Assembly (NCBI GenBank): GCA_009760885.1
Contig: CM019692.1
Span: 60,402,426 to 60,466,425 of the forward strand
Direction of reading: 5' to 3'
From: Achatina immaculata
Taxonomy: Eukaryota; Mollusca; Gastropoda; Stylommatophora; Achatinidae
DNA length: 64,000 bases
Shown: piece by piece, positions 1,061-49,000 of the stretch
Layout of the letters: every line of letters starts with the position of its first letter
Position numbering within the stretch: the stretch's first letter is position 1
Notes under the pieces: model-generated
What the model saw: the letters and a program-made list of their open reading frames with translations, nothing else
Databases searched by the model: none
Told to the model about the DNA's origin: nothing
Program-made: the position numbers and the translations under genes

Positions 1061-4000
1061 CCTATTGATTAGCCATTCTGTTTTCATCCACTGCGGGCTC
1101 CCTCCTCCTAAAACAGATGAAGTCCTCTGGAGCAATGGACCAAAATCTCACTGGCCTTGTTAGTAGAAGTAGTAGTAGTTGAATTCATGTCAAACTAAAG
1201 AGCAGTGACTTTTTGAGCCTAGGCCACCGCGCATTTTGGTATTTTCGCTGTGGTTTTCCCTGATAGAATTTCCCTTCGTGCTTTCTAATTCGATATCCCA
1301 GCAGAGTTTCCGCTTACAGTGATCGTCAGTATAGTCCTGTCTGGACATTTGGACCCGTGTTCGGTAGCTTCGTGTCGCTTTATTCCATGTCCAGCAGCTT
1401 GTGTACGCTTATCTGACTGTATATTTGGCGTTCATCTGTCCTGTCAGGAGACAATCGCCAGTCTTCTTCTTCTTCGTTCGCTTCTACCACCAAAAACCGC
1501 ACTGTGGTCCTACTGAATTCATGCCTGTGGTCCTCGTTAGGTCCCGTGGTCCCCTGTGTGGTCCCCGAAAAGACCACACGAGATCCACGAGAGGACCACA
1601 AGGGGTTCAGAGTATCACAGGGCTTTAGCCTGTATTCTTGGTGGGTCTCGGAAGCGGGATTGCGTGACACCGTGGTTTTCATTGCACCAGTTTAGTCTAG
1701 GGTTGGACTTTCTCACCGGAAGACCTCGACGTGTTTAGGATATCAGTGCATCCCCGCTGGGTGAGAGGCGGTAGCCCACCCAGGCCAGAGTTGGACTTTC
1801 TCACCGGAAAACCTCGACGTGTTTTGAGATACTTGTGTATCACCGCCGGGTGAGAGGTGGTTGTCCATCCAGTCCAGGGTTGGACTTTCTCACTGGAAAA
1901 CCTCAGCGTGATTAGGATACGCAAACATCCCCGCCGGGTGAGAGGTGGTTGCCTATTTAGACTTCCCTGGTCCAGTGTCTCCGACTTCAGCATTTTGCGG
2001 TCGTGGCCGCTACCCTTCCTAGTTGTGACCAGGATGGAGCTTTTGTCCAGGAGGACGAATCCTTGCCACTAGTGACTTCTACCCCTGGGTTGAGCCGGTT
2101 TAGGCATTATCCCAGTATGGGCATGTTTGGGACGGGACCGACCTCTAGGGCAGAGGTACTGTGACATGCATAGCCTTCAAGATTCACCTCTGGTATGAGC
2201 CGGTTTAGGCAAAATTCACCTGTATGGGTGTTTATCAGGCGTTACCGACCTCTAGAGCGGAGGTGGCATGACATGTCTAGCCATCAAGTTCCACCCCTGG
2301 TGTGTGCCGGTTTAGGCATATTTCACCAGTCTAGGTGTATTTCGGACGTGGGCGGCCTCTAGAGCAGAGGTGCCGTGGTATAGCTCTCGTAGCGATACTA
2401 CTGGACATACCGGTTAAACTTCACTTTCCACCACCTTTTCACGTCGGCTCCGCACAGCAACCTTTATTTCTTTTCCGCATTTACTTCCTTAACCGGGAGG
2501 AGCTTCACTCCACGCAAGGCATTTGAAGAGTCTCGCCAGCAGTGTCTTAACCTGTGGGACAAACCGGTTCATGCATTTCACCCGATATGACTGCACTCAG
2601 GACGTGGCCGACCTCCAGACCAGAGGTGCCGTGATTTGATTGTTTGCTTCTCTTTATCCTTTCTACCACCTTTTCCGCAGTGATGCTGCTCGGCAATCTC
2701 ATTTGCAAATTTCTTCATTGGCCGGGAGGAGCACCGCTCCACGCACGGCAGCTGAAGCTCTCGCCAACAGCGGTTTTGAACTAATAAAAGCGCTCTTTCC
2801 GCGAGGGTCGGAGCTTGGTAAGCATGTATTAGCTCTAGAATTGCCACAGTTATCCAAGTAGGATCGTGTCATCTAAGGAACCTCGACTGATTTAATGAGC
2901 CTTTCGCGGTTTCACCGTGAGACAGTGTGAACTTAGACATGCATGGCTTAATCTTTGAGACAAGCATATGACTACTGGCAGGATCAACCAGATAGCTTTC
3001 TTCACCTAACCTTTGTCGGATATCTGCCGACAGACCGACGCGGGGCAAGGGAGACAGCGCTCTGCTCAGAGCGGATCCCTTTCAACCCCGGCGGCGTTTC
3101 AATTCCTTTAACCGGCGGGGGCGGCTCTCTCTGCTCTAACGAGCGGATAAGAAAGCCTGGCCACCCACAAATAACACACATTACATACTGCAGACCCGAT
3201 ACTCTGTGCGAGAGATTGGCCAATTTCGAGACCATCGGTCGACAAAACCGTACTACATCGTTAGCACGAACCTGGGTGGCTAGCCGTTTACATGCTTCGC
3301 TCGACGGACAAACCACTTGCTTCTGCATCGAAACACCTTAACTCTCGCCGTCCGGGAAGGGAGCGAAAGCCTGTCTCCCCACGCACGGAACTCGAGAGCG
3401 CTTTTTCGCCAAAAGAACAATCGCCAGTAAAAGTGCCCTTTTTCAGAACGGTTTGTGTACGAGAAACAGTCGAGAGCTAAAATTGTTCAATAACAACAGT
3501 AATGAAAAAGGAAACTTCATACTTGATGTAATCTTAAACTTCATACTTGATGTAATCTTAAACTTCATACTTGATGTATTCTTAAACTCCATACTTGATG
3601 TAATCTTAAACTTTATACTTGATGTAATCTTAAACTTCATACTTGACATAATCTTACGTGCAAAAACTGGTGCTGTCAGAAATTCCTGAGTGTATCTGCA
3701 AGGCAGCAATGTCTGTCTCCAGCTTCATGACCCTCGAGCACTGATATATGCCCCATTCAAAATCATCTCTAGAGAAGCAGCTTGCCTCTGACAACAAAAC
3801 TAAGGCCAAGGAGTTAAGAATCAATTAGGAACCAAAATAAACACACACACACAAAATAAATAAATAACATCATTCACACAAATAAAAAACGTTTATCTTG
3901 TCTCCGATCTTTGGTTTATATTATATTTCAATGGCTTTGATTTTCTTTTTCCATTTTGTTTTTGTTTTAAGGATTTATGCACTGAAGAGTGTTTTAGGGA

Positions 4001-11874: not shown

Positions 11875-11974
11875 NNNNNNNNNNNNNNNNNNNNNNNNNN
11901 NNNNNNNNNNNNNNNNNNNNNNNNNNNNNNNNNNNNNNNNNNNNNNNNNNNNNNNNNNNNNNNNNNNNNNNNNN
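11875..11974. other. Assembly gap (100 N)
   Basis: 100 N. It hides the outer end of the left arm of the inverted repeat that starts at 11975. Confidence 0.98.
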
Positions 11975-17084: not shown

Positions 17085-18998
17085 ATGGAAAGTCAAATAG
17101 GAAAAACATCTGGTGGTGACGCCCTCAGCCCAGATAGATCTAATTTTAACACTGGGGAAGAGTGTGAGACAGAGGTCAGTACTAGTAATTGTGATGATGG
17201 AAAAAATCCTGACGGTGTTACCAAGGAAAACCCCTGTATCAAACTAAAAAGAAAAATAAGAGTAGGAACATGGAATGTAAGAAGTATGTATGAGGGAAGT
17301 ATCAAATAATAAGTGATGAGATGAAAAGAACGGGGATACACATTTTGGGAATCTGCGAACATCGATGGAAAGGATCAGGACACTTCAAGAGCGAGAATGG
17401 TAATATCTGTATATACTCTGGTGGAGAATTAGGATAAAGAATGGAGTGGCTTTTTACTTGGACAAATCAACATCAAAATCATTACTAGGTTACAATCCAG
17501 TAAATGATAGGATCCTCAGAATCAGACTTAAGGGCATTCCTAGAAATGTAACAATCATCCAGATATATGCACCTACGTTAGCAGTAGAAGAAAAGGAAGT
17601 AGAATACATTATAACACGCTGCAAAGAACGATAGACCAGGTACGGAAAAAAATTGTATTAATAATGGGGGATTTCAATGCAAAGATTGGTACAGAAAGAA
17701 CAGAAGATGAAGGACATGTTGTAGTGAAATTTAGTATAGGACATAGAAATGAAGCAGGTGACAGTCTAATGGCTCTTTGCAAGGAAAATGAGCAAATGAT
17801 TAATAACACACTTTTTAAACAACATCCAAGAAGACTTTACACATGGACATCACCAGATGGGAAACCCAAGAATCAAATAGATTACATTTTAATGAAAAGA
17901 AGGTGGAGGTCAAGTATAACATCAGCACAGAGTTTACCAGTTGCTGACTGCGACATGGACCATGAGTTATTAATAGCAGACATGAAGATAAAGAAAAAAA
18001 AAGACATTTACGGGATCAAGACTACTCCGCTTTGATCTTACAAAAATAAAAGAACAATACGGTATAGAAGTGAAGAACCGTTTCGAAATCCTGATAGCTG
18101 TACAGGAAGAGATGACACCAAACGATTTGGCTACAAAGGGCAGAGATATCTTAATAACAAAAGCTAAAGACATGGTTCCAGTAAAGAAAACACAAAAGAA
18201 AAGATGGATTACAGCAGGCACACTAGAACTGATAAAACAACTTAGAGAAATGAAGACGCAATGGAAAGTGACAAACAACACAGAGAAATATAAATCTTTA
18301 ACAAAAGAAGTACGAAGAAACATACGAAAAGACAAAAAACAATACATACAAGATTGTTGTGAAAAGATAGAAGGATATCAGAAGTGTGGAGGAGATAGTG
18401 AAATGTTTAAAGAAATGAAGACATTGATGAGAAATGTCACACATAAGCTAAATGCAATTTGTGATGAGATGGGGAATGCCTTGACAGAGACAGAGGAAAT
18501 TCTAGAAAGATGGAAGGAATATTGCAGAGGAATGTATGAAACAACCGACTGTGAAAGCAGAAATCAACAGTGTGAATTATTATTGGAGGGGAAAGAACCC
18601 AAATCGACAATAGAATAAGTTTTATGGGCAATAAAGAATCTGAAAAATGGTAAATCACCAGGATGTGATGAGATAACAACTGAATTTATTAAAGCAGAAG
18701 GAAAGGAATGTGCAACAATCTATCACGTACTATGTAAAAAGATATGGCATTCAGATATTTGGCCAAAAGAATGGAAAAGAATTGTATTCAAACCACTACC
18801 ATAAAACGATAACCTGAAATTATGCACACACTACAGAACTGTTGCCCTGATTAGTCATATCAGTAAAATTCTGTTAAAATCATAATGGGTAGACTTCGAA
18901 AGAAAATAGAAGAAGAAGTCAATATGGTCCAAGCTAATTTTGGACAAGGAAGATGACCAAGAGATCATATATTCAATACAAGATTAATAATAGAGAAA
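17085..18998 (+). pseudogene. LINE-A ORF, 5' half (endonuclease and RT N-part)
   Basis: Fragments in at least two frames cover the APE-like endonuclease and the RT fingers. Stops lie at ~17309, ~17634 and ~18618, with frame changes at ~17310-17440 and ~18010. The ORF would act in target-primed reverse transcription if intact. Confidence 0.8.
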
Positions 18999-21535
18999 CG
19001 TCAGCCGCGCAGAGCTGCGCCGACCTGCACAGCGCGGGCGGTTGCTGTTGCGCAGGCCGACCGTTCTTTTGGCGAAAAAGCGCTCTCGAGTTCCGTGCGT
19101 GGGGAGACAGGCTTTCGCTCCCTTCCCGGACGGCGAGAGTTAAGGTGTTTCGATGCAGAAGCAGGTGGTTTGTCCGTCGAGCGAAGCATGTAAACGGCTA
19201 GCCAGCCAGGTTCGTGATAACGATGTAGTACGGTTTTGTCGACCGATGGTCTCGAAATTGGCCCATCTCTCGCAAAGAGTATCGGGTCTGCAGTATGTAA
19301 CGTGTGTTGTTTGTGGGTGGCCAGGCTTTCTTTTCCGCTCGTTAGAGCAGAGAGAGCCGCCCCCGCCGGTTAAAGGAAATGAAACGCCGCCGGGGTCGAA
19401 AGGGATCCGCTCTGAGCAGAGCGCTGTCTCCCTTGCCCCGCGTCGGTCTGTCGGCAGATATCCGACAAAGGTTCGGTGAAGAAAGCTATCTGGTTGATCC
19501 TGCCAGTAGTCATATGCTTGTCTCAAAGATTAAGCCATGCATGTCTAAGTTCACACTGTCTCACGGTGAAACCGCGAATGGCTCATTAAATCAGTCGAGG
19601 TTCCTTAGATGACACGATCCTACTTGGATAACTGTGGCAATTCTAGAGCTAATACATGCTTACCAAGCTCCGACCCTCGTGGAAAGAGCGCTTTTATTAG
19701 TTCAAAACCAATCGTCGTTGTCCTTCGCGGGGCGCGGCGTCCCAACTGGTGACTCTGGATAACTTTGTGCTGATCGCATGGCCTTCTGTGCCGGCGACGC
19801 ATCTTTCAAATGTCTGCCCTATCAAATGTCGATGGTACGTGACATGCCTACCATGTTTGTAACGGGTAACGGGGAATCAGGGTTCGATTCCGGAGAGGGA
19901 GCATGAGAAACGGCTACCACATCCAAGGAAGGCAGCAGGCGCGCAACTTACCCACTCCCGGCACGGGGAGTAGTGACGAAAAATAACAATACGGGACTCT
20001 TTCGAGGCCCCGTAATTGGAATGAGTACACTTTAAACCCTTTAACGAGGATCTATTGGAGGGCAAGTCTGGTGCCAGCAGCCGCGGTAATTCCAGCTCCA
20101 ATAGCGTATATTAAAGTTGTTGCAGTTAAAAGCTCGTAGTTGGATCTCAGGCGCAGGCGGGCGGTCCGGCTCGCGCCGGTTCACTGCCCGTTGTCTCCTG
20201 CCCTACCGTCTGCCGGCTCTCTCCCGCGGGTGCTCTTCGCTGAGCGTCCCGGGTGGCCGGCGCGTTTACTTTGAAAAAATTAGAGTGTTCAAAGCAGGCC
20301 CCAGCTGCCTGAATAATGGTGCATGGAATAATGGAATAGGACCTCGGTTCTATTTTGTTGGTTTTCGGAACTGGAGGTAATGATTAACAGGGACAAACGG
20401 GGGCATTCGTATTGCGGCGTTATGCATGAACCGGCTTGTCCCAGAGGTTAAGTCACTGCTGGCTTGACTCTTCAAATGCCGCGCGTGGAGTGAAGCTCCT
20501 CCCGGTTAAGGAAGTAAATGCGGAAATAAAGGTTGCTGTGCGGCGCCGATGGGAAAAGGTGGTGGAAAGTGAAGTTTAACCTGGTATGTCCAGTAGTATC
20601 GCTACGAGAGCTATACCACGGCGCCTCTGCTCTAGAGGCCGCCTACGTCCGAAATACACCTACACTGGTGAAATATGCCTAAACCGGCATACACCAGGGT
20701 TGGAACTCGATGGCTAGACATGTCATGCCACCTCCGCTCTAGAGGTCGGTAACGCCTGATAAACACCCATACTGGTGAATTTTGCCTAAACCGGCTCATA
20801 CCAGGGGTGAATCTTGAAGGCTATGAATGTCACAGTACCTCTGCCCCAGAGGTCGGTCCCGTCCCAAACACGCCCATACTGGGAAATGCCTAAACCGGCT
20901 CAACCCAGGGGTAGAAGTCACTAGTGGCGAGGATTCGTCCTCCTGGACAAAAGCTCCATCCTGGTCACAACTAGGAAGGGTAGCGGCCACGACCGCAAAA
21001 TGCTGAAGTCGGAGACACTGGACCAGGGAAGTCTAGATAGGCAACCACCTCTCACCCGGCGGGGATGTCTGCGTATCCTAATCACGCTGAGGTTTTCCGG
21101 TGAGAAAGTCCAACCCTGGACTGGATGGGCAACCACCTCTCACCCGGCGGTGATACACGGGTATCTCAAAACACGTCGAGGTTTTCCGGTGAGAAAGTCC
21201 AACTCTGGCCTGGGTGGGCTTACGCCTCTCACCCAGCGGGGATGCACTGATATTCCAAACACGTCGAGGTCTTCCGGTGAGAAAGTCCAACCCTAGACCA
21301 AACTGGTGCAATGAAAACCACAGTGTCACGCAATCCCGCTTCCGAGACCCACCAAGAATACAGGCTAAAGCACGGTGATACTCTGAACCCCTTGTGGTCC
21401 TTTCGTGGAACTCGTGTGGTCTATTTTGGACCACACAGGGGACCACGGGACCTAACGAGGACCACATGCGTGAATTCAGTAGGTTCACAGTGCGGTTTTT
21501 GGTGGTAGAAGTGAACGAAGAAGAAGAAGAAGAAG
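18999..21535 (+). mobile_element. Pre-rRNA-headed retroposon, copy 2
   Basis: Target duplication AATAGAGAAA at 18989-18998 and 21536-21545. Removing the element and one duplication restores the LINE-A frame exactly. Parts are 5' external transcribed spacer 18999-19486, the 5' half of 18S 19487-20422, and a tail 20423-21535. The tail has four ~100-bp sub-units (each with CTCTAGAGG-like palindromes and CCTAAACCGGC) and three ~88-bp sub-units (ACCTCTCACCCGGCGG ... CCGGTGAGAAAGTCCAAC), ending GTGAACGAA(GAA)n. No protein is encoded. Copy 1 has the same order but a different 18S/tail joint. Confidence 0.92.
19487..20422 (+). pseudogene. 18S rRNA 5' half (~936 nt) inside retroposon copy 2
   Basis: Clear 18S from CTGGTTGATCCTGCCAGTAG through GCCAGCAGCCGCGGTAATTC to GGCATTCGTATTGCGGCGTT. 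Normal 18S would continue AGAGGTGAAATTC, but here it joins TGCATGAACCGG of the tail. Preceded by spacer and missing the 3' half, 5.8S and 28S, it is a retroposed fragment, not an rDNA unit. Confidence 0.95.
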
Positions 21536-21545
21536 AATAGAGAAA

Positions 21546-22352
21546 TGCAGAGAGTTTAATGTGAATCTATATTTATCCTTTATAGACTACTCAAAGGCAT
21601 TTGTACAACACCAGAAACTTTGGGGAATAAGGACAAAAATGGGATTCCCAACACATTTGATACAATTAACATCAATGCTGTATCTAGACCAACAAGCAGC
21701 AGTAAGAATATATAGTGAAACAACAACTTGGTTTGACATGAAACAAGGGTTCCGTCAGGGGTGCCTTACTTATTTAAATTGTATACTGAAAATATAATGA
21801 GGAATATTAGAGAATATTACCATGCCATAACAATTGGAGGTTATGAAATACCAGAGATTAGATATGCTGGTGACACAGTATTACTGTCCACAACACAAAA
21901 AGGAATGGAAAAACTAATTATGTCAGTACGTAGGAATTGTGAAGAGCAAAGCCTCTATCATAACGCAAAGAAAACTAAATTGATGACAACTGACAAAACA
22001 AACAAGGCAACTGATATTTGTATCAATGAGGTAAAACTGGAAGAAGTGGAGAGTTTTGAATATCTTGGATCACTACTAACTAATAATAGAAATACAATGA
22101 TGGAAATTAAAAGTAGGACATCTATTGCTCTTCAGAAATTAAAGCAACAAAAGAATCCGTGGAGAGTAACAGATAGAACTACAGATATACGATTGTTAAG
22201 GGCGTGCATCTTTCCCATCGCAACATGTGCCTGTGAGACCTGGACACTTAACAAAACTGCTGAGAAACACATAAATGCCTTTGAATACTACAGAAGAGTT
22301 CTTCAAATACCATGGACACAAAAAAGAACAGATATATCTATACTACAATAAC
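21546..22352 (+). pseudogene. LINE-A ORF, 3' half (RT palm to C-terminus)
   Basis: LYLSFIDYSKAF is RT motif A, RQGCLTYLN is a broken QGC.LSP motif, RYAGDTVLL replaces YADD, and VESFEYLGSLLTNN is the thumb. It ends with CETWTLNKTAEKH. One frameshift lies near 21770. Confidence 0.82.
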
Positions 22353-22667
22353 TTAATATTGAAGAAGGCTGGCTAGTAAAGAGGATTAAAGAGAGAAAAC
22401 TTAAATAATATGGACACATTAAACGTCATCATAATCTAGATAAAACTGTCTTGGAAGGGTGCATAATGGGGAAATGAAAAAGGGTAAGAGCAAGGTGAAG
22501 ATGGCTGCAAGACATCGTTGATGATCTGCAAATGGATGCATCAACAGCAGGGTAACTTGCTCACAACCGAGAGGCCTACAGAAGTGCTGTTAAGGAGGCG
22601 AAGTTCCGCAAGGGACATGGACATGAATGAATGAAATCAATCTCGTCGTGATGTATGATTTCTAGTT

Positions 22668-23325: not shown

Positions 23326-25147
23326 CAGCTATACTTGACATACATGTAGCCCTCATCTCAGTCATGTTTGACAAACATGTAGCCCTCATCTCAGTCATGT
23401 TTGACAAACATGTAGCCCTCATCTCAGTCATGTTTGACAAACATGTAGCCCTCATCTCAGTCATGTTTGACAAACATGTAGCCCTCATCTCAGTCATGTT
23501 TGACAAACTTGTAGCCCTCATCTCAGTCATGTTTGACAAACTTGTAGCCCTCATCTCAGTCATGTTTGACAAACTTGTAGCCCTCATCTCAGTCATGTTT
23601 GACAAACTTGTAGCCCTCATCTCAGTCATGTTTGACAAACATGTAGCCCTCATCTCAGTCATGTTTGACAAACATGTAGCCCTCATCTCAGTCATGTTTG
23701 ACAAACATGTAGCCCTCATCTCAGTCATGTTTGACAAACATGTAGCCCTCATCTCAGTCATGTTTGACAAACTTGTAGCCCTCATCTCAGTCATGTTTGA
23801 CAAACATGTAGCCCTCATCTCAGTCATGTTTGACAAACATGTAGCCCTCATCTCAGTCATGTTTGACAAACCTGTAGCCCTCATATCAGCCATGTTTGAC
23901 AGACCTGCAGCCCTCATGTCAGCTATGTTTGAAAAACCGGTAGCTCTCTTGTCAGACATATTTGACAAACATGTAGCCCTCATATCAGCCAAGTTTGACA
24001 GACCGGTAGCTCTCTTGTCAGACATGTTTTACAAAATTGTAGCCCTCATGTCAGATATGTTTGATAAAACTGCAGTCCTCATGTCAGTTATGTTTGATAA
24101 AATTGTAACCCTTATGTCAGCATGTTTGATAAAACTGTAACCCTCATGTCAGAATGTTTGATAAAACTATAGCCCTCATGTCAGCATGTTTGACAAACCT
24201 GTAGCCCTCATGTCAGCCATGTTTGACAGACCTGCAGCCCTCATATCAACCATGTTTGACAAACCTGCAGCTGTCATATCAGCCATGTTTGACAGACCTG
24301 AAGCCCTCATGTCAGCCATGTTTGACAAACCTGTAGGTCTCTTGTCATACATGTTTTACAAACCTGAAGCCTTCATATCACCTATGTTTGATAAAACTGC
24401 ACCCATCATGTCAGCTATGTTTGATAACACTGCACCCCTCACGTCAGCTATGTTTGATAAAATTGTAGCCCTCATGTCAACATTTTTGATAAAACTGTAA
24501 CCCTCATATCAGCATGTTTGATAAAACTGTAGCCCTCATATCAGCAATGTTTGATAAAACTGTAACCCTCATGTTAGTTACGTTTGATAACATTGTAGCC
24601 CTCATGTCAGCATGTTTGATACAATTGTAGCCCTCATGTCAGCAAGTTCGTTAAAACTGTAGCCCTCATTTCAGCATGTTTGATAAAATTATACCACTCA
24701 TGTCAGATATGTTTGATAAAATTGTAGCCCTCATGTCAGCATGTTTGATAAAACTATAGCCCTCATGTCAGCATGTTTGACAAACCAGTAACCCTCATAT
24801 CAGCCATGTTTGACAGTCCTGTAGTCCTCATGTCAGCCATGTTCGACAAACCTGCACTCCCCATATCAGCCATATTTGACCTACCTGCAGTCCTCATGTC
24901 AGCTGTGTTTGACACACATGTAGCTCTCTTGTCAGACACGTTTGACAGACCTGTAGCACTCATGTCAGCCATGTTTGACAAACCTGTAACTCTCTTGTCA
25001 GACATGTTTTACAAACCTGTAGCAATCATGTCAGTTCTGTTTACTAAAATTGTAGTCCTCATATCAGCATGTTTGATAAAACTATAGTCCTCATGTCAGC
25101 TATGTTTGATAAAATTGTAGCCATCATGTCAGCATGTTTGATAAAAC
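23326..25147. repeat. 33-bp satellite, about 55 copies, running into a gap
   Basis: The left half is a nearly perfect 33-bp unit (GTAGCCCTCATCTCAGTCAT and GTTTGACAAACAT). The right half is degenerate with units of 30-33 bp. Because 33 is divisible by three, both strands stay open for over 250 codons (VALISVMFDKH on plus, SNMTEMRATCL on minus). I see no splice sites or start context that favour either as a protein. Confidence 0.92.
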
Positions 25148-25247
25148 NNNNNNNNNNNNNNNNNNNNNNNNNNNNNNNNNNNNNNNNNNNNNNNNNNNNN
25201 NNNNNNNNNNNNNNNNNNNNNNNNNNNNNNNNNNNNNNNNNNNNNNN
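25148..25247. other. Assembly gap (100 N)
   Basis: 100 N at the end of the satellite. The array may be longer than shown. Confidence 0.98.
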
Positions 25248-28026: not shown

Positions 28027-31000
28027 GTAAGTATTATATGAGTTTTATACAGTGCATTAGTTTTGTATACTTAATATGTAATAAGCTTTTTCTTTTCTAT
28101 AAAAACAAAAACAAAAATGTTTTTTACTGTGTAGTTATCAGCCTCTCTTCTTCACACATATGCTTATACATATGTGTGCTGTACCAAATATTTGTATTTG
28201 GCCAAATACAATTCCCCAAAAGTTTTCTTATTTAATATTTTCAAATCATGGGTATCTGAAACTGCAGATATGGGAGGATTACCTTCCATCTCTCTCTATC
28301 TTCTGCGTGTGTGCGTGTGTTTGTCTGTGTGTTTGTGTATGTGGAGAGTGAGTGTGTGACACAGGTATTCAGTCAGTTATATCATACTTTATTACCTCAC
28401 ATTGTAAGTATTGTGCAAGAATGTGATCAACTCACATTATAAATGCCATATTCTTACATACTGAACTTGTCTTATATTATTCTCTGTATTACACAGGAGA
28501 CTATTTGATAGTTGGTAGTATTAGTCATACCAGTCAGACAACACAAGTGTCCTTACATTGGGAAGACAGGTCTCAGAGAGGTAATGTGAGCTACAAGATT
28601 ACATGGACTAGCAGTGGAAAAAGTATATCATCTATATCTGCCAGTAGAACTGGAGGAAATGTAACTAACCTTGAACCTGGAACTCAGTACATCTTTACTG
28701 TCATTGGATCTCTACCAAGTGATGATTATTATGAAAAAACAGAAATGCAGTCGTCACAATATACAGCATGGACATGTGAGTATTTTCCTATAACAAACAG
28801 AAGTACTTTAGTTGTGTGGCAGAATGAATTAAACTGTACTATTCTTCTTCATAAAAGTTACTGAGCTTGAAAGCTATTCTTCTAGATAAAGGTTACTGAG
28901 CTTGAAAGCTATTCTTCTAGATAAAAGTTACTGAGCTTGGAACCTATTCTTCTTCATAAAAGTTACTGAGCTTGAAAGCTATTCTTCTTCATAAAAGTTA
29001 CTGAGCTTGAAAGCTATTCTTCTTGATAAAAGTTACTGAGCTTGGAAACTATTCTTCTTGATAAAAGTTACTGAGCTTAAAAACTATTCTTCTAGATAAA
29101 AGTTACTGAGCTTGAAAGCTATTCTTCTAGATAAAAATTACTGAGCTTGAAAGCTATTCTTCTAGATAAAAGTTACTTAGCTTAAAAGCTATTCTTCTAC
29201 ATAAAAGTTACTGAGCTTGAAAGCTATTCTTCTAGATAAAAGTTACTGAGCTTGAAAACTATTCTTCTTGATAAAAGTTACTGAGCTTGAAATTTTTCTT
29301 CCAAATAAAAGTTACTGAGCTTAGCTAAGCTATTCTTCTAGATAAAAGTTACTGAGCTTGAAATTTTTCTTCCAGATAAAAGTTACTGAGCTTGAAAACT
29401 ATTCTTCTTGATAAAAGTTACTGAGCTTGAAAACTATTCTTCTAGATAAAAATTACTGAGCTTGAAAGCTATTCTTCTAGATAAAAGTTACTGAGCTTGA
29501 AAACTATTCTTCTAGATAAAAATTACTGAGCTTGAAAGCTATTCTTCTAGATAAAAGTTACTTAGCTTGAAAACTATTCTTCTAGATAAAAGTTACTGAG
29601 CTTAAAAAATATTCTTCTAGATAAAAGTTACTGAGTTTGAAAACTCTTCTTCTTCTTCTTCGTTCGCATTGTCTGTCTATACCTGCAGTCCTGTCTCTTG
29701 GATAAATTTCACTGTTTTTTGTAATTCATGTATGGAACCATAGAGCTTATCTTCTTTAGTGGTTTCACTGGGCCAGTAATTATTTCTCAGTGTTTCATAG
29801 TTGGTGCAGTTCTGGAGGATATGTTCCACAGTTTGGGGCTCCTGGGCACATGTACATAGATTAATAGTACCAACCTTAAACTTTGTATACATATGACTTC
29901 GGAGTCGGGTGTGTCCTGTTCGGAGACGGAAGATGGTGACTTGTTCCTTTCTGTTTAGCATGTGATAGTCATCATGTGGTGGCGTTTGTGGCTTCCTGTA
30001 GGTTTTTATCATGCTTTTCTTCTGATTATAGGTAATTGGTATGTCTGGTTGCTCCATTTCAGTGCCCTCTTTGGCCAGATGGTCAGCTTTCTCATTGCCT
30101 GGTATCCTACAGTGGGAGGGAATCCATTGCAAAGTGACTCCATGTTGTAAGCCAATTTTTGACAAGGCATCCTTAAGGTCTGGTAGTTTGTTGCACTGAA
30201 GAGCTTCCAGTACTGATCTTGCATCTGTGAGAATTACTACAGGACATGTATCAATTCTGGAGTCTGATAGTTTTTCAACTGCAGCAATAATTGCCCTAAC
30301 TTCTGCATCAAAGTTGTTGCAGTATTTTCCAGTGGGTATGGAAATCTTGTCAGTGGTGTTGTTTGGATATTCATTATGTGCTCCTGCCCCTCCATTCTTT
30401 ATGGCATTGTGTGCAGATCCATCTGTATACACACATATCCAGGTGTCACATGGATATTTGTCATCTAGAACACTAAGTGTGGCTTACAAGGCTGCTTTGC
30501 ATCTCACCATTCTGCACACCTTTCACTTCAGTCTGAATAGTTATTTGTGTATAATCTGCTTCTTTCCACGGTGTATGCACTGGTACAGATGATAATGGAG
30601 CGACTACAGTTGGAAGGTCAGGTATCAGTTTACACATACGCTTGGCCTGGTGAATGAAGCTGCTTCTTTTAAGCCATCTTAATGCCAAGTTATTGAATCT
30701 CTCCTTCAGGGGATGGCTTACAGAGCTAAGGAATTTCTCTCCCATGGTCATGACCTTTGTGTCTCTACGTTCCTTTAGCGCTTGAACACCAACTATTTTC
30801 TGCATTTCTGCTATTGGTGTGGACCTCATGGCACCTGTGATAATCCATAGTGACTGATTTTGAACCTTTTCTAGATTATGCAGCGTAGTGTTTGATGCTG
30901 TGCACCAAGATGTTGAGCCATATTCTAAATGTGGTAGAATACTTTGCTGATATACATTCTTGAGGATTCTTTCACTAGCTTCCCATGTGGTTCCACTTAA

Positions 31001-34000
31001 TTTTCTTAATATGGCTAGTTTTCTTCTGGCTTTTGCTTCTGCACTGTTGATGTGTTGCATCCAAGTCAGTTTTGAGTCAAGAGTCACTCCTAAGTAAGTG
31101 GGTTGGTTGTCCATCCTTAAGGATATTTCATTTACAAAGATCTTACCTGCTTTCTGTTTAGATGAGAGAGTGAACAGAGTGGTACTTGATTTCTCTGTGT
31201 TGATACTTACACACCATTTGTTTGTCCATGATGTCAAGATGTCTGCTGCTCTTTGGAGTCTCTGTGTAGCAACTGTCGCATATTCATCTGTACACCACAT
31301 GACCAGATCATCTGCATACAATGCCGCTTTGATTCCATAGGGAAGTTCCTTGACCAGGTCATTAATGAATACAAGGAATAGTGTAGGCGAAAGGACTCCT
31401 CCTTGTGGTACACCGTGTCACAGAAGTACTTTCTGGCTTTTGTGTCCATCCATTACTAATCTAGCTCTACTATTGTGTAAATAGGACTTTATCCAGTTGT
31501 ACAGTCTTCCATTCACATTGCAGTTTCTTAGTTTCCACAGCAGACCTTTTTTCCATACTTTATCAAAGGCTTTCTTTAGGTCTATCCACACTGCTAGTAC
31601 AAGGTTTTTCTCTTGGAATGCATCCTCAATCTCTTGAGAGAGATAGGTCACTTGATCTTCCGTACTGTAGTACTGCCTAAATCCTGCTTGTTGTGGAACG
31701 AGAAGGTTTTCACTTACTAGGTACCATTTTAGCCTCAGGTCAATGATGCGTTCCATCGTTTTGCATAGGCAGCTAGTGAGACTGATTGGCCTGTAGCTGG
31801 AGGCAGTATCACTGTTTTTCCCTGGCTTTAGCAGTGGTACCATGCTTGCTTCCTTCCAGATTTGAGGTAACATACCCGTGCTCCAGCACATATTGAAAAT
31901 ATCCAACAGCTTTCCTATTGCTGCCATTCCCAGGTTCTTGATCATTTCATTTGACACTCCATCTGGTCCTGGTGATTTCCTTGGTTTCAGTTTACTGACT
32001 GCTAGGTCTAACTCGCTGCGTGTGATTGGTGCATCCATGACCTCCACTTTTCTGACTTGTTCCTCTTCTTTCTGTGGGTCAGTGCGCACTGCACGCTCTT
32101 TCTCTGGATGGATATCAATGTTGCAGTCCTGTGCAAACATGCGAGCAAAGTGATCTGCTACCTGCTTACCTGTAAGAGTATTCCCATCCTCTATTAGTGT
32201 AATCTTTGTACTTCTTCCAGTACTCTCATCAGTTAACTGTTTGATTAGTTTCCACAGTTTCCTTCCATCCTTTTCAAAGTTTAGGGACTCTGTTTTCTCT
32301 CTCCAACTTTCCCGTCTGGCTTGCAGCTTGGCTCTCTGAAATTTGGCCTTAGAATGTTGGTAATTATTGTGGTGTTCTTGGCATGGTCTATTTTCTGCTT
32401 GCTTTCGAGCTGCTTCCACATCATCATGGAGTTTTCCCAGCTCACTAGACCAGTATGGTTTATAGTCCCTGCGAGCTCCTCTGGGAATGGTTTCATGATC
32501 GGCCTGAAGGATACAAGCATTGAATTCCTTCACTATGCTGTTAATATCCTTACCTTCTATTGACAGCTGTCCCACCAGGATACCTGTACAATGTCTGTAC
32601 ATTGTCCAGTTTGCTTTTTTATAGTTCCATCCGAGGATAGGGCTACTGGTGTTAAGGAATTCATTTTCTATTGTCAAGAAGACTGGTCGATGGTCGCTAC
32701 CTCCAAGTTGTTTTCCAACTTCACGTGTAATGTTCCACTTCAGATCTGGAGAGTGGAATGCCAGATCTGGTGTTGAGGTTGTACGCCAAGCTCTTGAGTA
32801 AAATGTTGGGGGATCCATTAGCTGGTTGATCAGGAGAAGTCCATTATCATCCTACCAGCTCTCAACTTCCTCTCCTCTCTTGTCTATGTGGTCATAGCCC
32901 CAGCTCTGGGAATGGCTGTTAAAATCGCCACAGTCTCTCTTTGTGTGGGATTGTTTCTAAAGCAAGTGGGCGGTCATTAGGACAGTAATAGTTAAGGAGG
33001 TGGAAATCTGTATTACTGCTTTTTAGATGGATCATCTGATATTCGGCTCCTTCCATGAACACTCCCACCGACATGCGCTGATGTTATTCTTAACAAGTGT
33101 GAGTACTCCTCCTTTTCTTCTGTCCTGTCGGTCTGATCTAAAACATTGATAGCCTCTGATTTTAAAGGCAGCATCTTTGGTTAGGTGTGTCTCCTGTATG
33201 CAGCATATACTTACCTGCTCTGCAAAAAGTATGTTCTCTAGTTCCACCTTTTTGCTATAGCCGTCTCTAACACTGCTGACACCCCCAGCATTCCACTGCA
33301 TTATTTTAAGTTCTTGCTTTTTGGCTGTTTTCTTCTGTTGTATTTTTTGGCCAGTAGCTCTACTCTCATGTCTCCTGACTCCACAAGATGAACTGAGTGG
33401 ACTTCCAGTAGCATTGGGTGGACACTTTCAAGGCAGGGGGCCTGCCACTGGACCTGCCTGGTTAGTCTTCACAGGGCGAGCACCATGTTTGAATGCTGCA
33501 GATAGAGACATTTCATTAGCGATAATGCGTGTTACCCTGATTTTTGTGATGCGCCTTTTGGCTGGGTAACTCCAACTTCAGCACCTTTCCTTCCTAGGGC
33601 AGACTGTGGTCTTGCTCGGACTACCATGAAGATAGGGTGGCTGGCCTGGCCAAAACTTTGTTTTCCAGCCTCTGGTGGCTGTATGTAAGTCCTTTCTACA
33701 TGCAGATGGTTTGGAGACAGTTCCACAAAGACACTCTGACTTTGAGATGAGGGACCTGATGAGTGCTTCAATGATATTCATTCCCTGCCACCTATAGTCT
33801 GCTGGCTCTGTTTCGTTTACATCATTCTGATAGCCATTGTTGTAAAGACCTATAGGCTTGTCACGTCCTGGATTCATTGGTTTCACACCAGACTTCCCTC
33901 ATCCCCGCCAGAGATCTCCATGTCCCCATCTGTCCACCTATCTGACATTACATTTTACAAAAATAACAGTTACAATTAGTGTTGATTGCTACAAGTTTCT

Positions 34001-37000
34001 GGACTACAGAAGTAGGTCAGAGTTTTTAAGCAAACAGATCTATGTTCCCTGTCTCACAAACATTATGTTAAGATAAGTGTGCTCTTAACACAGTTGTTCC
34101 CAGGGGGAGCTTGAAAGCTATTCTTCTAGATAAAAGTTACTGAGCTTGAAAACTATTCTTCTAGATAAAAATTACTGAGCTTGGAACCTAATCTTCTAGA
34201 TAAAAATTACTGAGCTTGAAAGCTATTCTTCTAGATAAAAGTTACTGAGTTGAAAGCTATTTTTCTTGATAAAAGTTGCATATCTTGAAAGTTATTCTTT
34301 TAAATATAAGTTATGAGCTGGAAAAAAACTATGTACAAAGTGTCAGTGAATTATGAGGGTCTGGAGGAATCATTGTTTTAATGTTCAGGCTGAGGTTGAT
34401 TGTTTAACCACCAGAGACCGTGAACTTGTGGTCTCTGCAATCAAACCTATGATGACCAGCCAGGGTGGGATTAATTTACACTAGCTTGTTTCAAGTTATA
34501 ACAAACTAACAGAAAGGGAAAGAATGTTCACTGTAGCAGACTACCCATAGGAAGCAGGTGATACATATATAGTATATCTTTCTGGGCAAAAAAGCAGTTT
34601 GAAGGTATGTGAGAGTACATACCCACTCGTACAGACCATTGTCAAGAATCTTGCTATCATGACTTACATGCTTGAAAGCACTTAGGTGGGAAGTAGCGTT
34701 GTTCAGAATCTTGCTATCATGACTTACACGCTTGAAAGCACTTAGGTGGGAAGTTGCATTATCCAGAATCTTGCTATCATGACTTACACACTTGAAAGCT
34801 CTGAGATGGGAAGTTGCATTGTCCAGAATCTTGCTATCATGACTTACATGCTTGAAAGCACTTAGGTGGGAAGTTGCATTATCCAGAATCTTGCTATCAT
34901 GACTTACACACTTGAAAGCTCTGAGATGGGAAGTTGCATTGTCCAGAATCTTGCTATCATGACTTACATGCTTGAAAGCACTTAGGTGGGAAGTTGCATT
35001 ATCCAGAATCTTGCTATCATGACTTACACACTTGAAAGCTCTGAGATGGGAAGTTGCATTGTCCAGAATCTTGCTATCATGACTTACATGCTTATCAACA
35101 CTGAGGTGGGAAGTTGCATTGTCCAGAATCATGCTATCATGACTTACATGCTTATCAGCACTTAGGTGGGAAGTTGCATTATCCAGAATCTTGCTATCAT
35201 GACTTACACGCTTATCAGCACTTAGGTGGGAAGTTGCATTGTCCAGAATCTTGCTATCATGACTTACACATTCATCAACACTGAGGTAGGCAATAGCATT
35301 GTCCAAAATCAACAGCCTTTACTTCTTCTGCTGGAAGTATTAGGACATCTTCCAGATATTTCCACACAGCAGAGATGAAGTGTATGAAGAACCAGTCACA
35401 GAATATCTGCACATTAAACCACACTTTCTTAGAGTGATAATGCACTGGGAGTCACTTCATAATATCTTTCCTAATCTGTGGTCCACATGACCACTAATTT
35501 TGGCTGATGCATCCTATCTGCTTTAGCATAGAAACACTGAAAGAAATTGCTCCTTACTTTGTTTATTGTCAGCTATCAACCCTTCATGTCTGAATGCCTG
35601 TGTTGTTCTTAAAAAGAGCCCAGTCCTTATCCATGTTGTATGTTGGGAATCTAACAGGTTCTTTTTTTTTATCAAATAATTTAACTTTTGTCTGTATGAC
35701 CCCACCTCATCCATCACTGAACTACTAGTCTCACCATATGTTATCTTATTACTAATTCCATAGTGATTTCTAAACCTCCGTAGCCACCCATTTCTGAGCT
35801 ACTAGTCTCACCATGTGTTATCTTATTACTAATTCCATAGTGATTTCTAAACCTCCGTAGCCAGCCATCACTGAACTACTAGTCTCACCATATGTTATCT
35901 TATTACTAATTCCATAGTGATTTCTAAACCTCCGTAGCCACCCATCACTGAACTACTAGTCTCACCATATGTTATCTTATTACTAATTCCATAGTGATTT
36001 CTAAACCTCCGTAGCCACCCATCACTGAACTACTAGTCTCACTATGTGTTAATCTTATTAGTAATTCTCCTAAACCCATGATTGATCTGTACAAGAAAAG
36101 CCTTGCATACTCTGCAGTACAGCTCTGGAACACCCTACCCTACCATTTAAAATCCATTAGTAGTACTTCATCCTTTAACTCAAACCTGTTTCATTATTTA
36201 CCTGCTTGTAATTATATGCCTCCATAGAATAACCAGCACTCTCTCAACCTATGACTCACCAGCCATCAAGTACTAAAATGACATACTGGTTTGAAAAGTA
36301 ACTTGTTAGATATTGTTAGAAATTATTTTAATGTTTGTTAAAAACATATGTTAGAAAATCTGTACTGAAAATGTATTTTTGTTTATGTATATGTCTTTGT
36401 GTGTATGCGTGTGTGAGTGTTATTTTCTTAGGTTAATTATTTCCTCTCTTTTACTTTGAATGTGATAGTTTAATCTTACACTATTTGATATGTTGTTTCC
36501 AAATGTAATTTGTATACTTCTATTAAATCAAGTGTGTGGGAAGAATGAAAGATTGAGTGATGAAGGGCAGAATGTAAGACGGGTCTGCATGCCCAATTCT
36601 TTACCCTTTAAAAATAAAGTTCATTCATTCATTCCTGCTGTAATTTCTAAACCTCCATACCACACATGAAGTTTCCTGTGCCCACATGCTGGATGAGTTT
36701 GGTTACAACATTTAGAATTTCCACACCACGGACATTTACACTTATAAGAAAATGTATTGAAATTCAGCAAACAAACAGCAAGGAACTCTGGTAAGCTACA
36801 GATGTGAACATCTGCATGGTACCTTCAGCCTCATGAACCAGTTATAAACCAACAACTTGCAGACTTCAAGAAGTCATGACTCATAGGAGCCTACCTTCTT
36901 TAGAAAGTCAGAAGTTTAAAGGGCCGAAACATTTGCCTGAGGGGGAGTACCTCTCTCATGATCTGAGGAATTATGTTGATGTTTTACTTTCTACAAGAGT

Positions 37001-46000: not shown

Positions 46001-49000
46001 ATAAACCAAAAAGCATCTGAAACACAAATAAAATGAAAACCAGTAGATAGAAGAATACTTTATGCTAGAATAGAAACCAGTAGATGGAAGAATGCTTTAT
46101 GCTAGAATAGAAACCAGTAGATGGAAGAATGCTTTATGCTAGAATAGAAACCAGTAGATGGAAGAATGTTTTATTCTAGAGAATTAGAAACCAGTAGATG
46201 TAAGAATGTTTTATTCTAGAGAATTAGAAACCAGTAGATGAAAGAATGCTTTATTCTAGAGAATTAGAAACCAGTAGATGGAAGAATGCTTATTCTAGGA
46301 ATTAGAAACCAGTAGATGGAAGAATGCTTTATTCTAGAGAATTAAAACCAGTAGATGGAAGAATGCTTTATTCTAGAGAATTAGAAACCAGTAGATGGAA
46401 GAATGTTTTATTCTAGAGAATTAGAAACCAGTAGAGGGAAGAATGCTTTATTCTAGAGAATTAGAAACCAGTAGAATGAAGAATGCTTTATTCTAGAGAA
46501 TTAGAAACCAATAGATGGAAGAAATTTATTCTAGAGAATTAGAAACCAGTAGATGGAAGAATTTTATTCTAGAGAATTAGAAACCAGTAGATGGAAGAAT
46601 GCTTTATTCTAGAGAATTAGAAACCAGTAGATGGGAGAATGTTTTATTCTAGAGAATTAGAAACCAGTAGATGGAAGAATGCTTTATTCTAGAGAATTAG
46701 AAACCAGTAGAGGGAAGAATGCTTTATTCTAGAGAATTAGAAACCAGTAGAATGAAGAATGCTTTATTCTAGAGAATTAGAAACCAATAGATGGAAGAAT
46801 GCTTTATTCTAGAGAATTAGAAACCAGTAGATGGAAGAATGTTTTATTCTAGAGAATTAAAACCAGTAGATGGAAGAATGCTTTATTCTAGAGAATTAGA
46901 ACCAGTAGATGGGAGAATGTTTTATTCTAGAGAATTAGAAACCAGTAGATGGAAGATGCTTTATCTAGAGAATTAGAAACCAGTAGAGGGAAGAATGCTT
47001 TATTCTAGAGAATTAGAAACCGTAGAATGAAGAATGCTTTATTCTAGAGAATTAGAACCAATAGATGGAAGAATGCTTTATTCTAGAGAATTAGAAACCA
47101 GTAGATGGAAGAATGCTTTATTCTAGAGAATTAGAAACCAGTAGATGGAAGAATGCTTTATTCTAGAGAATTAGAAACCAGTAGATGGAAGAATGTTTTA
47201 TTCTAGAGATTAGAAACCAGTAGATGGAAGAATGCTTTATTCTAGAGAATTAGAAACCAGTAGAGGGAAGAATGCTTTATTCTAGAGAATTAGAAACCAG
47301 TAGAATGAGAATGCTTTATTCTAGAGAATTAGAAACCAATAGATGAAGAATGCTTTATTCTAGAGAATTAGAAACCAGTAGATGGAAAATGCTTTATTCT
47401 AGAGAATTAGAAACCAGTAGATGGAAGAATGCTTTATTCAGAGAATTAGAAACCAGTAGATGGAAGATGTTTTATTCTAGAGAATTAGAAACCATAGATG
47501 GAAGAATGCTTTATTCTAGAGAATTAGAACCAGTAGAGGGAAGAATGCTTTATTCTAGAGAATTAGAAACCAGTAGAATGAAGAATGCTTTATTCTAGAG
47601 AATTAGAAACCAATAGATGAAGAATGCTTTATTCTAGAGAATTAGAAACCAGTAGAATGAAGAATGCTTTATTCTAGAGAATTAGAAACCAATAGATGGA
47701 AGAATGCTTTATTCTAGAGAATTAGAAACCAGTAGATGGAAGAATGCTTTATTCTAGAGAATTAGAAACCAGTAGATGGAAGAATGCTTTATTCTAGAGA
47801 ATTAGAAACCAGTAGATGGAAGAATGTTTTATTCTAGAGAATTAGAAACCAGTAGATGGAAGAATGCTTTATTCTAGAGAATTAGAAACCAGTAGAGGGA
47901 AGAATGCTTTATTCTAGAGAATTAGAAACCAGTAGAATGAAGAATGCTTTATTCTAGAGAATTAGAAACCAATAGATGGAAGAATGCTTTATTCTAGAGA
48001 ATTAGAAACCAGTAGATGGAAGAATGCTTTATTCTAGAGAATTAGAAACCAGTAGATGGAAGAATGCTTTATTCTAGAGAATTAGAAACCAGTAGATGGA
48101 AGAATGTTTTATTCTAGAGAATTAGAAACCAGTAGATGGAAGAATGCTTTATTCTAGAGAATTAGAAACCAGTAGATGGAGGGTAAAGCTGGGGCGACCA
48201 CCCTCAACCCAGCATGTCACAGGTGGCGGATGGTGAAAGTCCTCCAGATATGGAGGATCCCTGTGAATAAGGAGTTGTCCAAATAAGCAGGCGCGGACCA
48301 ACTGGCGGTAGACTCAGAGAGCAAGGTGGGGTAGTAGGTGGCTCTACTACTCCTATAAAGTGCCTCAGGTGCTCAGTGAAGGGAATACCAGGCGGGTCAG
48401 AGGCGCCTTAAAACCTCTCGCTCCCGCTGCCTTGCGGGTAGGACAGGGAGTCCAAAGGCTAGCGGAGAGTCCGTACACAAACCGACAGAAGGCAGCGGGA
48501 AACCACTGTTGTAGTTCCCAAGAATAGTTATGCTTGAACAGAATAATTGATTCATCATGAACGATGTTAATGGATGTTCCTCTGGAACAGCCTCGTCCGG
48601 TAGGGCAGCTCATGAGCCGCAGGTGAGGCCAGATCGTCATCAAACTACTGGTGGCAAAACTAACAAGTTCAAAATAGCAACATGGAATGTTAGAACTTTA
48701 TTCCAGGCTGGAAAATTAGAAAATGTAAAGATGGAAATGGGAAGGATGAAGATCAACATATTAGGAATGAGTGAAGTTAGATGGACAGGTGCAGGGAAGA
48801 TAAAATCAGATAAATATACAATAATATATTCAGGAAGTGAGAAACATTAACGAGGAGTAGGAATTATATTTGATGAACAAACGGCAAGGACAATTGTAGG
48901 ATATTTGAACATCTCGGACCGAGTCCTGCTAGCCCAACTGAAAGGACAACCAATAAACATAAATATTATACAAGTGTACACTCCAACATCTGAAAGTTCT

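Follow-up and report, generated by a model that had tools for sequence, protein, structure and literature searches.

A dispersed Achatina retroposon with pre-rRNA heads best read as 5′ transductions from rDNA-inserted copies

The retroposed copy at positions 18999–21535 of the window (the whole 64,000-nt stretch of Achatina immaculata DNA analysed here) carries a head of pre-rRNA. Such heads recur in dispersed copies of the same family and are best read as 5′ transductions from copies inserted in rDNA, whose RNA would have started at the rDNA start. What the sequence shows is the family with its target duplications, heads that repeatedly derive from the same 5′ end of the rRNA, and joints that bear an endonuclease signature. 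To the whole account, that of a LINE-mobilised, non-autonomous retroposon with rDNA-resident donors in which ribozyme-less copies carry the heads, we assign a probability of roughly 0.83.

The copy in the window and its family

The original prediction that the element is retroposed RNA was confirmed by its 10-bp target duplication, its (GAA)n tail and the restoration of an interrupted LINE frame. Joining the flanks as an empty site gives a frame that stays open from 14 codons ahead of the joint to at least 60 behind it and reads the RT motif FIDYSKAF; the host of the insertion is an old LINE. The head was likewise predicted to be unprocessed pre-rRNA, and it indeed consists of 5′ ETS contiguous with 18S and has the same 5′ end in dispersed loci. 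The 18S part starts at about element base 489, with GC-rich spacer directly upstream, and matches Rfam SSU_rRNA_eukarya at 19490–20112 and 20252–20469; base 18999 is an additional C that is present in some copies. At 20422 the 18S ends within GCGTTA and the tail begins, 1 nt being common to both. The nick motif described below lies 13 nt upstream of this joint, and the putative donor of the window copy is an element inserted after 18S nucleotide ~936.

Table 1. Retroposon copies and associated features in the window.
Feature	Position	Strand	Remarks
Retroposed copy	18999–21535	+	pre-rRNA head and 1.1-kb tail, ending (GAA)n
5′ target-site duplication, 10 bp	18989–18998	+	AATAGAGAAA
3′ target-site duplication	21536–21545	+	repeats AATAGAGAAA
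5′ external transcribed spacer (5′ ETS)	19000–19486	+	from about the pre-rRNA start, G at 19000
GC-rich hairpin, 5′ end of ETS	19000–19061	+	element 1–70 folds at −36 kcal/mol
18S rRNA, first ~936 nt	19487–20422	+	Rfam RF01960; end read at joint
Putative former rDNA-donor target duplication	20409–20421	+	GCATTC|GTATTGCGGCGTT|A; deduced from endonuclease motif
Tail	20422–21535	+	5′-truncated at full-length position 370; ends (GAA)n
Host LINE carrying the insertion	17500–22640	+	bounds approximate
Second copy	1462–3418	−	ETS from element 65, 18S to element 711, tail; target duplication ACAATCGCCAGT
Third copy, older, headless	52613–54058	+	from full-length position 28
Candidate helper LINE	29645–34105	−	bounds approximate; RT and RNase H pieces, frames broken

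A genome search with the tail, which had been proposed as a check, uncovered a dispersed family: all 40 scored places match at 99–100% identity, out of 2310 first-look candidates. The size of the family is given by loose first-look counts (2310 for the tail, 2058 for the ETS). Full-length members measure 1474 nt and run from GGTTCTAAGG to (GAA)n. Tail copies are dispersed on many contigs, with no site-specific insertion in rDNA. Our sample of 54 tail copies combines 28 loci from a first listing with 30 from a second, which held 40 places, minus four duplicates; it includes the window's own copy, leaving 53 others, and represents copies with sequence from about position 390 on, as the tail queries required. 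Dropped from the counts were L009, L046 and L047, which are the same copies as L001, L015 and L017, and also L056, which holds two full-length copies, one of them scored. L056 and L044 (C11:22.46 and 22.37 Mb), ~90 kb apart, have an identical target duplication, and their likeness is probably due to a segmental duplication containing the element.

Target duplications of the family are ~12 nt long, and the insertion sites follow a loose TTY|A. Duplications of at least 9 nt were found in 62 of the 65 copies tested, with shuffled pairings averaging 1.2 and reaching at most 4; the three misses (L003, L013 and L018) have duplications under a looser rule. This count excludes L040, the head of which runs off the stretch, L011 and W3, for which none was found, L059, and L071–L097 except L078 and L090, which were fetched without 3′ ends. 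For the third window copy a target duplication was sought and not found. With target duplications and a simple 3′ repeat in common with a LINE, the family has the traits of LINE-mobilised elements. A Pol III-type head gave no match in a comparison of L034 with Rfam, nor was a tRNA found in L001, L006, L007 and L034.

The 5′ ends of the tails are discrete. Among 43 headless copies (42 sampled loci and the third window copy), 19 start at position 1–2, 21 at 171–175 and 3 elsewhere, and the tail of the second window copy, which differs from the first in its joint, starts at full-length position 173–175. The tail folds into a stable hairpin at 140–174, position 174 being its base. A strong hairpin also occurs in the ETS (element 2–63), and three tail-found heads begin at 62–65. 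Both hairpins look like reverse-transcriptase stops, a reading that replaced an earlier one of a second promoter at 173.

Pre-rRNA heads and their joints

A 491-bp ETS piece gave 40 full matches at ~100% identity among the best 40 of 2058 candidates, and all 40 begin at base 1 or 2 of the piece. In this list of best-scoring candidates, 38 of 38 other loci continue into the tail; by selection, these are copies with a full ETS. Among the other sampled tail copies 11 of 53 are headed and 42 headless. Altogether 51 headed copies were examined, including the window's two, which excludes that the structure occurs only here. The recurrence looked for by the original prediction thus holds for the headed structure, but not for the exact 18S/tail joint of the window copy, which was found at one of the 40 scored places only.

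The ETS/18S heads sit 5′ of the element, between the target duplications of the new copy. For the 13 heads found via the tail or in the window, the start lies at element 1–2 in seven, at 62–65 in three, at 30 and at 124 in one each, and off the stretch in one. None of the 12 heads with a readable start in this set begins at the mature 18S 5′ end (element 489). No rRNA part among the heads read extends more than ~2.15 kb from the start or runs on into 28S, and their joints lie only in ETS or 18S; the 28S is normally a larger target than ETS and 18S. A target duplication within 5 nt of where the tail begins was located in 41 of the 43 headless copies, and therefore no other type of head was seen.

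Five of the 51 headed copies (L040, L058, L059, L083 and L091) are double-headed and would record two passages through rDNA. L059, taken with L063 (C26:19853600–19861220), forms the chain [1-1380][2-498][326-1380][2-1725][tail 172-653][394-1725][tail 172-...], which can be read as a double-headed copy that later underwent two tandem duplications.

The 51 headed copies contain 56 joints with 48 distinct joint strings, 1-nt differences counted and recurrent joints within the L059 duplications counted once. Because 56 joints give 48 joint sequences, the head is, on this evidence, not an inherited module but separately acquired. Together with the 42 headless copies among the 53 others sampled, this speaks against the SINE-like class defined by an rDNA head that had been suggested. 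The strings AAAACC|CGCTG and AAAACC|CCGCTG occur four and three times, respectively, and three others twice. The joints cluster at 711, 926, 1155, 892–894, 640 and 1380 and vary in detail at each of these, as in repeated independent insertions. All 55 joint strings checked were verified verbatim in the loci. Outside this check is L073, where a 14-nt filler (GGATGGCGCTAGAT) stands between pre-rRNA 643 and tail 174. At the inner joint of L083, ETS and tail have ~10 nt (CCGTGCGTGG) in common, a pattern suggestive of recombination or template switching; of all joints it is the one that most resembles homology-driven switching. Microhomology at the joints was considered as well and, by hand count, looks no higher than chance.

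Our nick motif is the first-strand nick TTY|A that opens the ~12-nt target duplication, and was built from 49 genomic insertions, with L011, L018, L019, L039, L040, L048 and W3 left out. At the pre-rRNA joints it scores a mean of 1.23 against a background of −1.78, with 0 of 5000 controls as high, and the offset profile peaks 11–12 nt upstream of the joints (local control, 0/20000). A prespecified retest used 15 further loci with nine new sites and a motif from 38 headless copies only, near-identical joints (710–712, 892–894, 1155–1156 and 512–513) being collapsed. The mean best score at the nine sites was +2.52 versus −1.68 in local controls, of which 0 of 20000 were as high. This remained 0/20000 without site 544, which lies 3 nt from an earlier site, and became 1/20000 when the inner joint of L083 was also removed. 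For the earlier joint sets the motif from the 38 headless copies gave P values of 0.002 and 0.007. TT or TC precedes the cut at 11–13 nt in 6 of the 9 new sites and 21 of the 30 distinct rDNA joint sites overall, compared to 32% in the background. The outer joints of the double-headed L040 (TTGATT|ACGTCCCTGCC) and L059 (GTTTTC|GGAACTGGAGGT) also fit the motif. Scores are weak at joints 130, 509, 512, 894 and 1027, and the offset peak is broad at the nine new sites (best at 13, then 10). As the nick motif lies 10–13 nt upstream, the joints appear to mark former insertion sites. Of the two sources originally proposed for the head, read-through of an element sitting in 18S is supported by this test; template switching is disfavoured, given that the joints lie at endonuclease-like rDNA sites.

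A predicted 5′ ribozyme and the headless copies

Full-length copies start exactly at the first nucleotide of a predicted HDV-like fold. P1 (GGTTCT/AGAACT) has a G.U at the cleavage site, P2 is formed by CTCCTG/CAGGAG, P3 (GCC/GGC) encloses the L3 sequence TTCCCGT, and CTGA lies ahead of the second strand of P2. The nested pseudoknot P1-P2-P3, the U and G in L3 and the catalytic C before P2′ of HDV-like ribozymes are all present in the predicted fold, and the U and G of L3 are given as HDV-like features in PMC3774820 (in part). Helix P4 is nearly absent, with only 7 nt (GTTTAAA) between P1′ and CTGA.

A rule-set scan of 700994 positions, covering both strands of the window and the loci, yielded 27 hits, 26 of them at the family start or one base before, for a rule set that was written after the fold had been seen by eye and loci that share the family sequence. 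No match was found in 3000 shuffles. Rfam reported no HDV ribozyme in L034 at E values up to 5, and an earlier HDV scan with a shorter J1/2 limit missed the fold.

Of the 51 headed copies, 41 have their innermost tail start at 172–176 and 9 have it at other places; only L034 starts at position 1. An intact 5′ end is thus found in 1 of 51 headed versus 19 of 43 headless copies (P = 3e-7), and in the tail-sampled copies alone in 1 of 12 versus 19 of 42 (P = 0.02). If the hairpin stopped half of the full-length RNAs, 13 intact headed copies would be expected, compared to the one observed (P = 3e-6). Since intact 5′ ends are scarce in headed relative to headless copies, it seems that a copy with its first 172 nt is kept from acquiring a head; full-length copies probably excise themselves by the HDV-like ribozyme.

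Origin of the heads and related systems

We infer rDNA-resident donors, Pol I transcription, ribozyme cleavage and the identity of the helper, in the following scheme. A non-autonomous, LINE-mobilised retroposon would insert at loose TTY|A sites throughout the genome, rDNA included, and its rDNA-resident copies would be transcribed within pre-rRNA from the rDNA start; Pol I origin would follow from such read-through. Full-length copies would be cut out at their first nucleotide by the HDV-like ribozyme and move without a head. Ribozyme-less copies, mostly starting at 173–175 after a reverse-transcriptase stop at hairpin 140–174, could not be excised. The LINE machinery would then reverse-transcribe the fused RNA, consisting of 5′ ETS, 18S up to the insertion site and the element, from (GAA)n and insert it at another place, creating a fresh target duplication of ~12 nt; the window copy would be one product. 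Predicted donor sites include 18S ~223 (TTTATT|AGTTCAAAACC), ~438, ~667 and ~892. The 3′ junction that an rDNA-resident copy would have at 711, the site used most often, was searched for and has no exact match in the assembly; for this one junction the absence carries little weight, since assemblies often collapse or lack rDNA arrays. No rDNA unit was recognisable among the 39 loci listed for the ETS (best of 2058 candidates). We regard as less likely than not the extension that all productive transcripts, headless ones included, come from rDNA copies by Pol I and are ribozyme-excised, with headed copies as a by-product of ribozyme-less donors. Under this extension rDNA would be a common launch pad for the dispersed family, and the genome would hold the record of several hundred earlier insertions into rDNA (rough Chao1 estimate from the joint strings, 356).

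Template switching or jumping onto pre-rRNA was our initial reading, based on the discrete RNA 5′ ends and an untemplated T, and was dropped when the nick motif at the joints indicated insertion sites instead. Several joints do have an untemplated T or A and adjoin discrete tail 5′ ends, chains with two heads exist, and both R2 and L1 are reported to switch with small RNAs (PMC3414825 and PMC13174262, in part). Switching, however, gives no reason for the endonuclease motif that is present 10–13 nt upstream of the joints, and no RNA other than pre-rRNA was seen as a head. Although mature 18S greatly outnumbers pre-rRNA, none of the 12 tail-found heads with a readable start begins at its 5′ end; we consider switching improbable. 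Ligation of a 5′-OH element RNA to cleaved pre-rRNA, followed by reverse transcription, would suit the 5′-OH that ribozyme cleavage would leave. A YpA excess at the joints, noticed before it was tested, agreed with ligation in an initial set of 18 sites (7 with YpA, P = 0.002), but was weak among 8 new sites, of which 2 had it, and we judge the preference mostly a by-product. Moreover, inner heads of double-headed copies mostly begin at the transcription start, ligation leaves the nick motif unaccounted for, and the heads sit on copies without the ribozyme end, which makes this route extremely improbable.

The spread of a headed subfamily as a unit with its pre-rRNA head would explain why a few joint strings recur and why headed copies show some clustering on a tail tree (a degree reached by 2 of 500 shuffles, for headed and headless copies partly sampled by different queries). 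Yet 48 of 56 joint strings differ, 1-nt differences counted, and the tree, with 22 headed among 60 copies, needs 13 state changes, of which at least 7 are forced by well-supported branches, so that such a subfamily is highly improbable as the source. rDNA is prone to misassembly, and chimeras of the assembly, or rDNA fragments inserted in some other way, might be suspected. Target duplications in 62 of 65 copies, the frame open across the empty site and the 5′ end common to dispersed loci render this scarcely credible. The proposal that the junctions are assembly joins is very unlikely because many loci have their own target duplications.

Transduction from rDNA-resident donors fits an R2-like life cycle without site specificity. 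An HDV-like ribozyme frees R2 from rRNA co-transcripts, and the SIDEs of R2 in Drosophila are non-autonomous elements that keep the 5′ ribozyme and the 3′ end; the Achatina family would resemble them in its putative transcription from rRNA genes and in a predicted 5′ HDV-like fold with a large J1/2 loop (PMC3414825 and PMC3774820, in part). Many R2s cleave up to 36 nt upstream in 28S and retain a little rRNA (same sources, in part), whereas leaders of 0.1–1.7 kb are carried to new places here. R2 is also site-specific in 28S; in contrast, the Achatina family is dispersed, and its putative rDNA sites are many and lie in ETS and 18S. Ribozymes of the HDV type near the 5′ end of dispersed elements, which free the RNA from co-transcripts, are known from the L1Tc/ingi clade of trypanosomatids (PMC4035085), in a source whose abstract makes no mention of carried rRNA leaders. 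The Pr77 region of these elements also activates transcription.

Mobilisation of the flank of an upstream-started transcript between target duplications is also seen in 5′ transduction by SVA and L1 (PMC12593883, in part), but the Achatina leaders seen all come from one transcription unit, the rDNA, via many separate donors. Chimeric L1 copies resemble the headed ones in having a sense RNA fragment (U6, 5S, 28S or other RNAs) 5′ of the retroelement and target duplications (PMC13174262, in part). They comprise few to 21 loci per new RNA type, with 18 for 28S and the term ‘18S’ absent from the main text, and are attributed to template switching or RNA ligation (PMC13174262, in part). In the Achatina family, by contrast, about one fifth of sampled copies carry heads, which consist of unprocessed pre-rRNA only and are joined at endonuclease-like sites. 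Non-autonomous elements with rRNA-derived heads further include the SINEs with 28S or 5S heads, SINE28 and SINE3. Their rRNA heads are modules of the family, whereas the Achatina heads appear individually acquired and include external spacer. None of the titles and abstract openings listed by searches of an open-access library, which lacks most subscription papers, describes dispersed elements with 5′ ETS and 18S heads.

In the preferred reading, two known phenomena, 5′ transduction and the R2-like use of rRNA genes for transcription, come together in an element that is dispersed and does not target rDNA. If this is true, chance insertion suffices for an element to use rDNA as a transcription site, and the heads are a genome-wide fossil record of rDNA insertions that the arrays may have purged. 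Their 5′ ends would mark where pre-rRNA begins and where reverse transcriptase is strongly stopped. The reading would also explain why long 5′ ETS/18S pieces are spread over the chromosomes, where they can cause errors in the mapping and assembly of rDNA and in identification by 18S.

The LINE at 29645–34105 is a candidate for the helper of the family. Its RT shows sequence kinship to L1 ORF2 and R2, and its endonuclease matches are weak, just under the Pfam cut-offs. The 3′ end reads ..GCGAAC(GAA)n compared to ..GTGAAC(GAA)n in the family tail, AAC(GAA)n being common to both. This LINE apparently sits in a tandem repeat, and a ~120-nt fragment of its 3′ end lies within the tail of L082 (~1345–1463), where it takes the place of a few bases and shows no obvious target duplication. 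Elsewhere in the window there are three apparent gaps of 100 bases (300 N in total), of which 104–203 was seen directly and 11875–11974 and 25148–25247 were placed from breaks in the self-comparison. A minisatellite of ~33 bp forms an array at 23335–25147, and the same ~40-bp minisatellite occupies two arrays, at 46032–48180 and 51489–52543.
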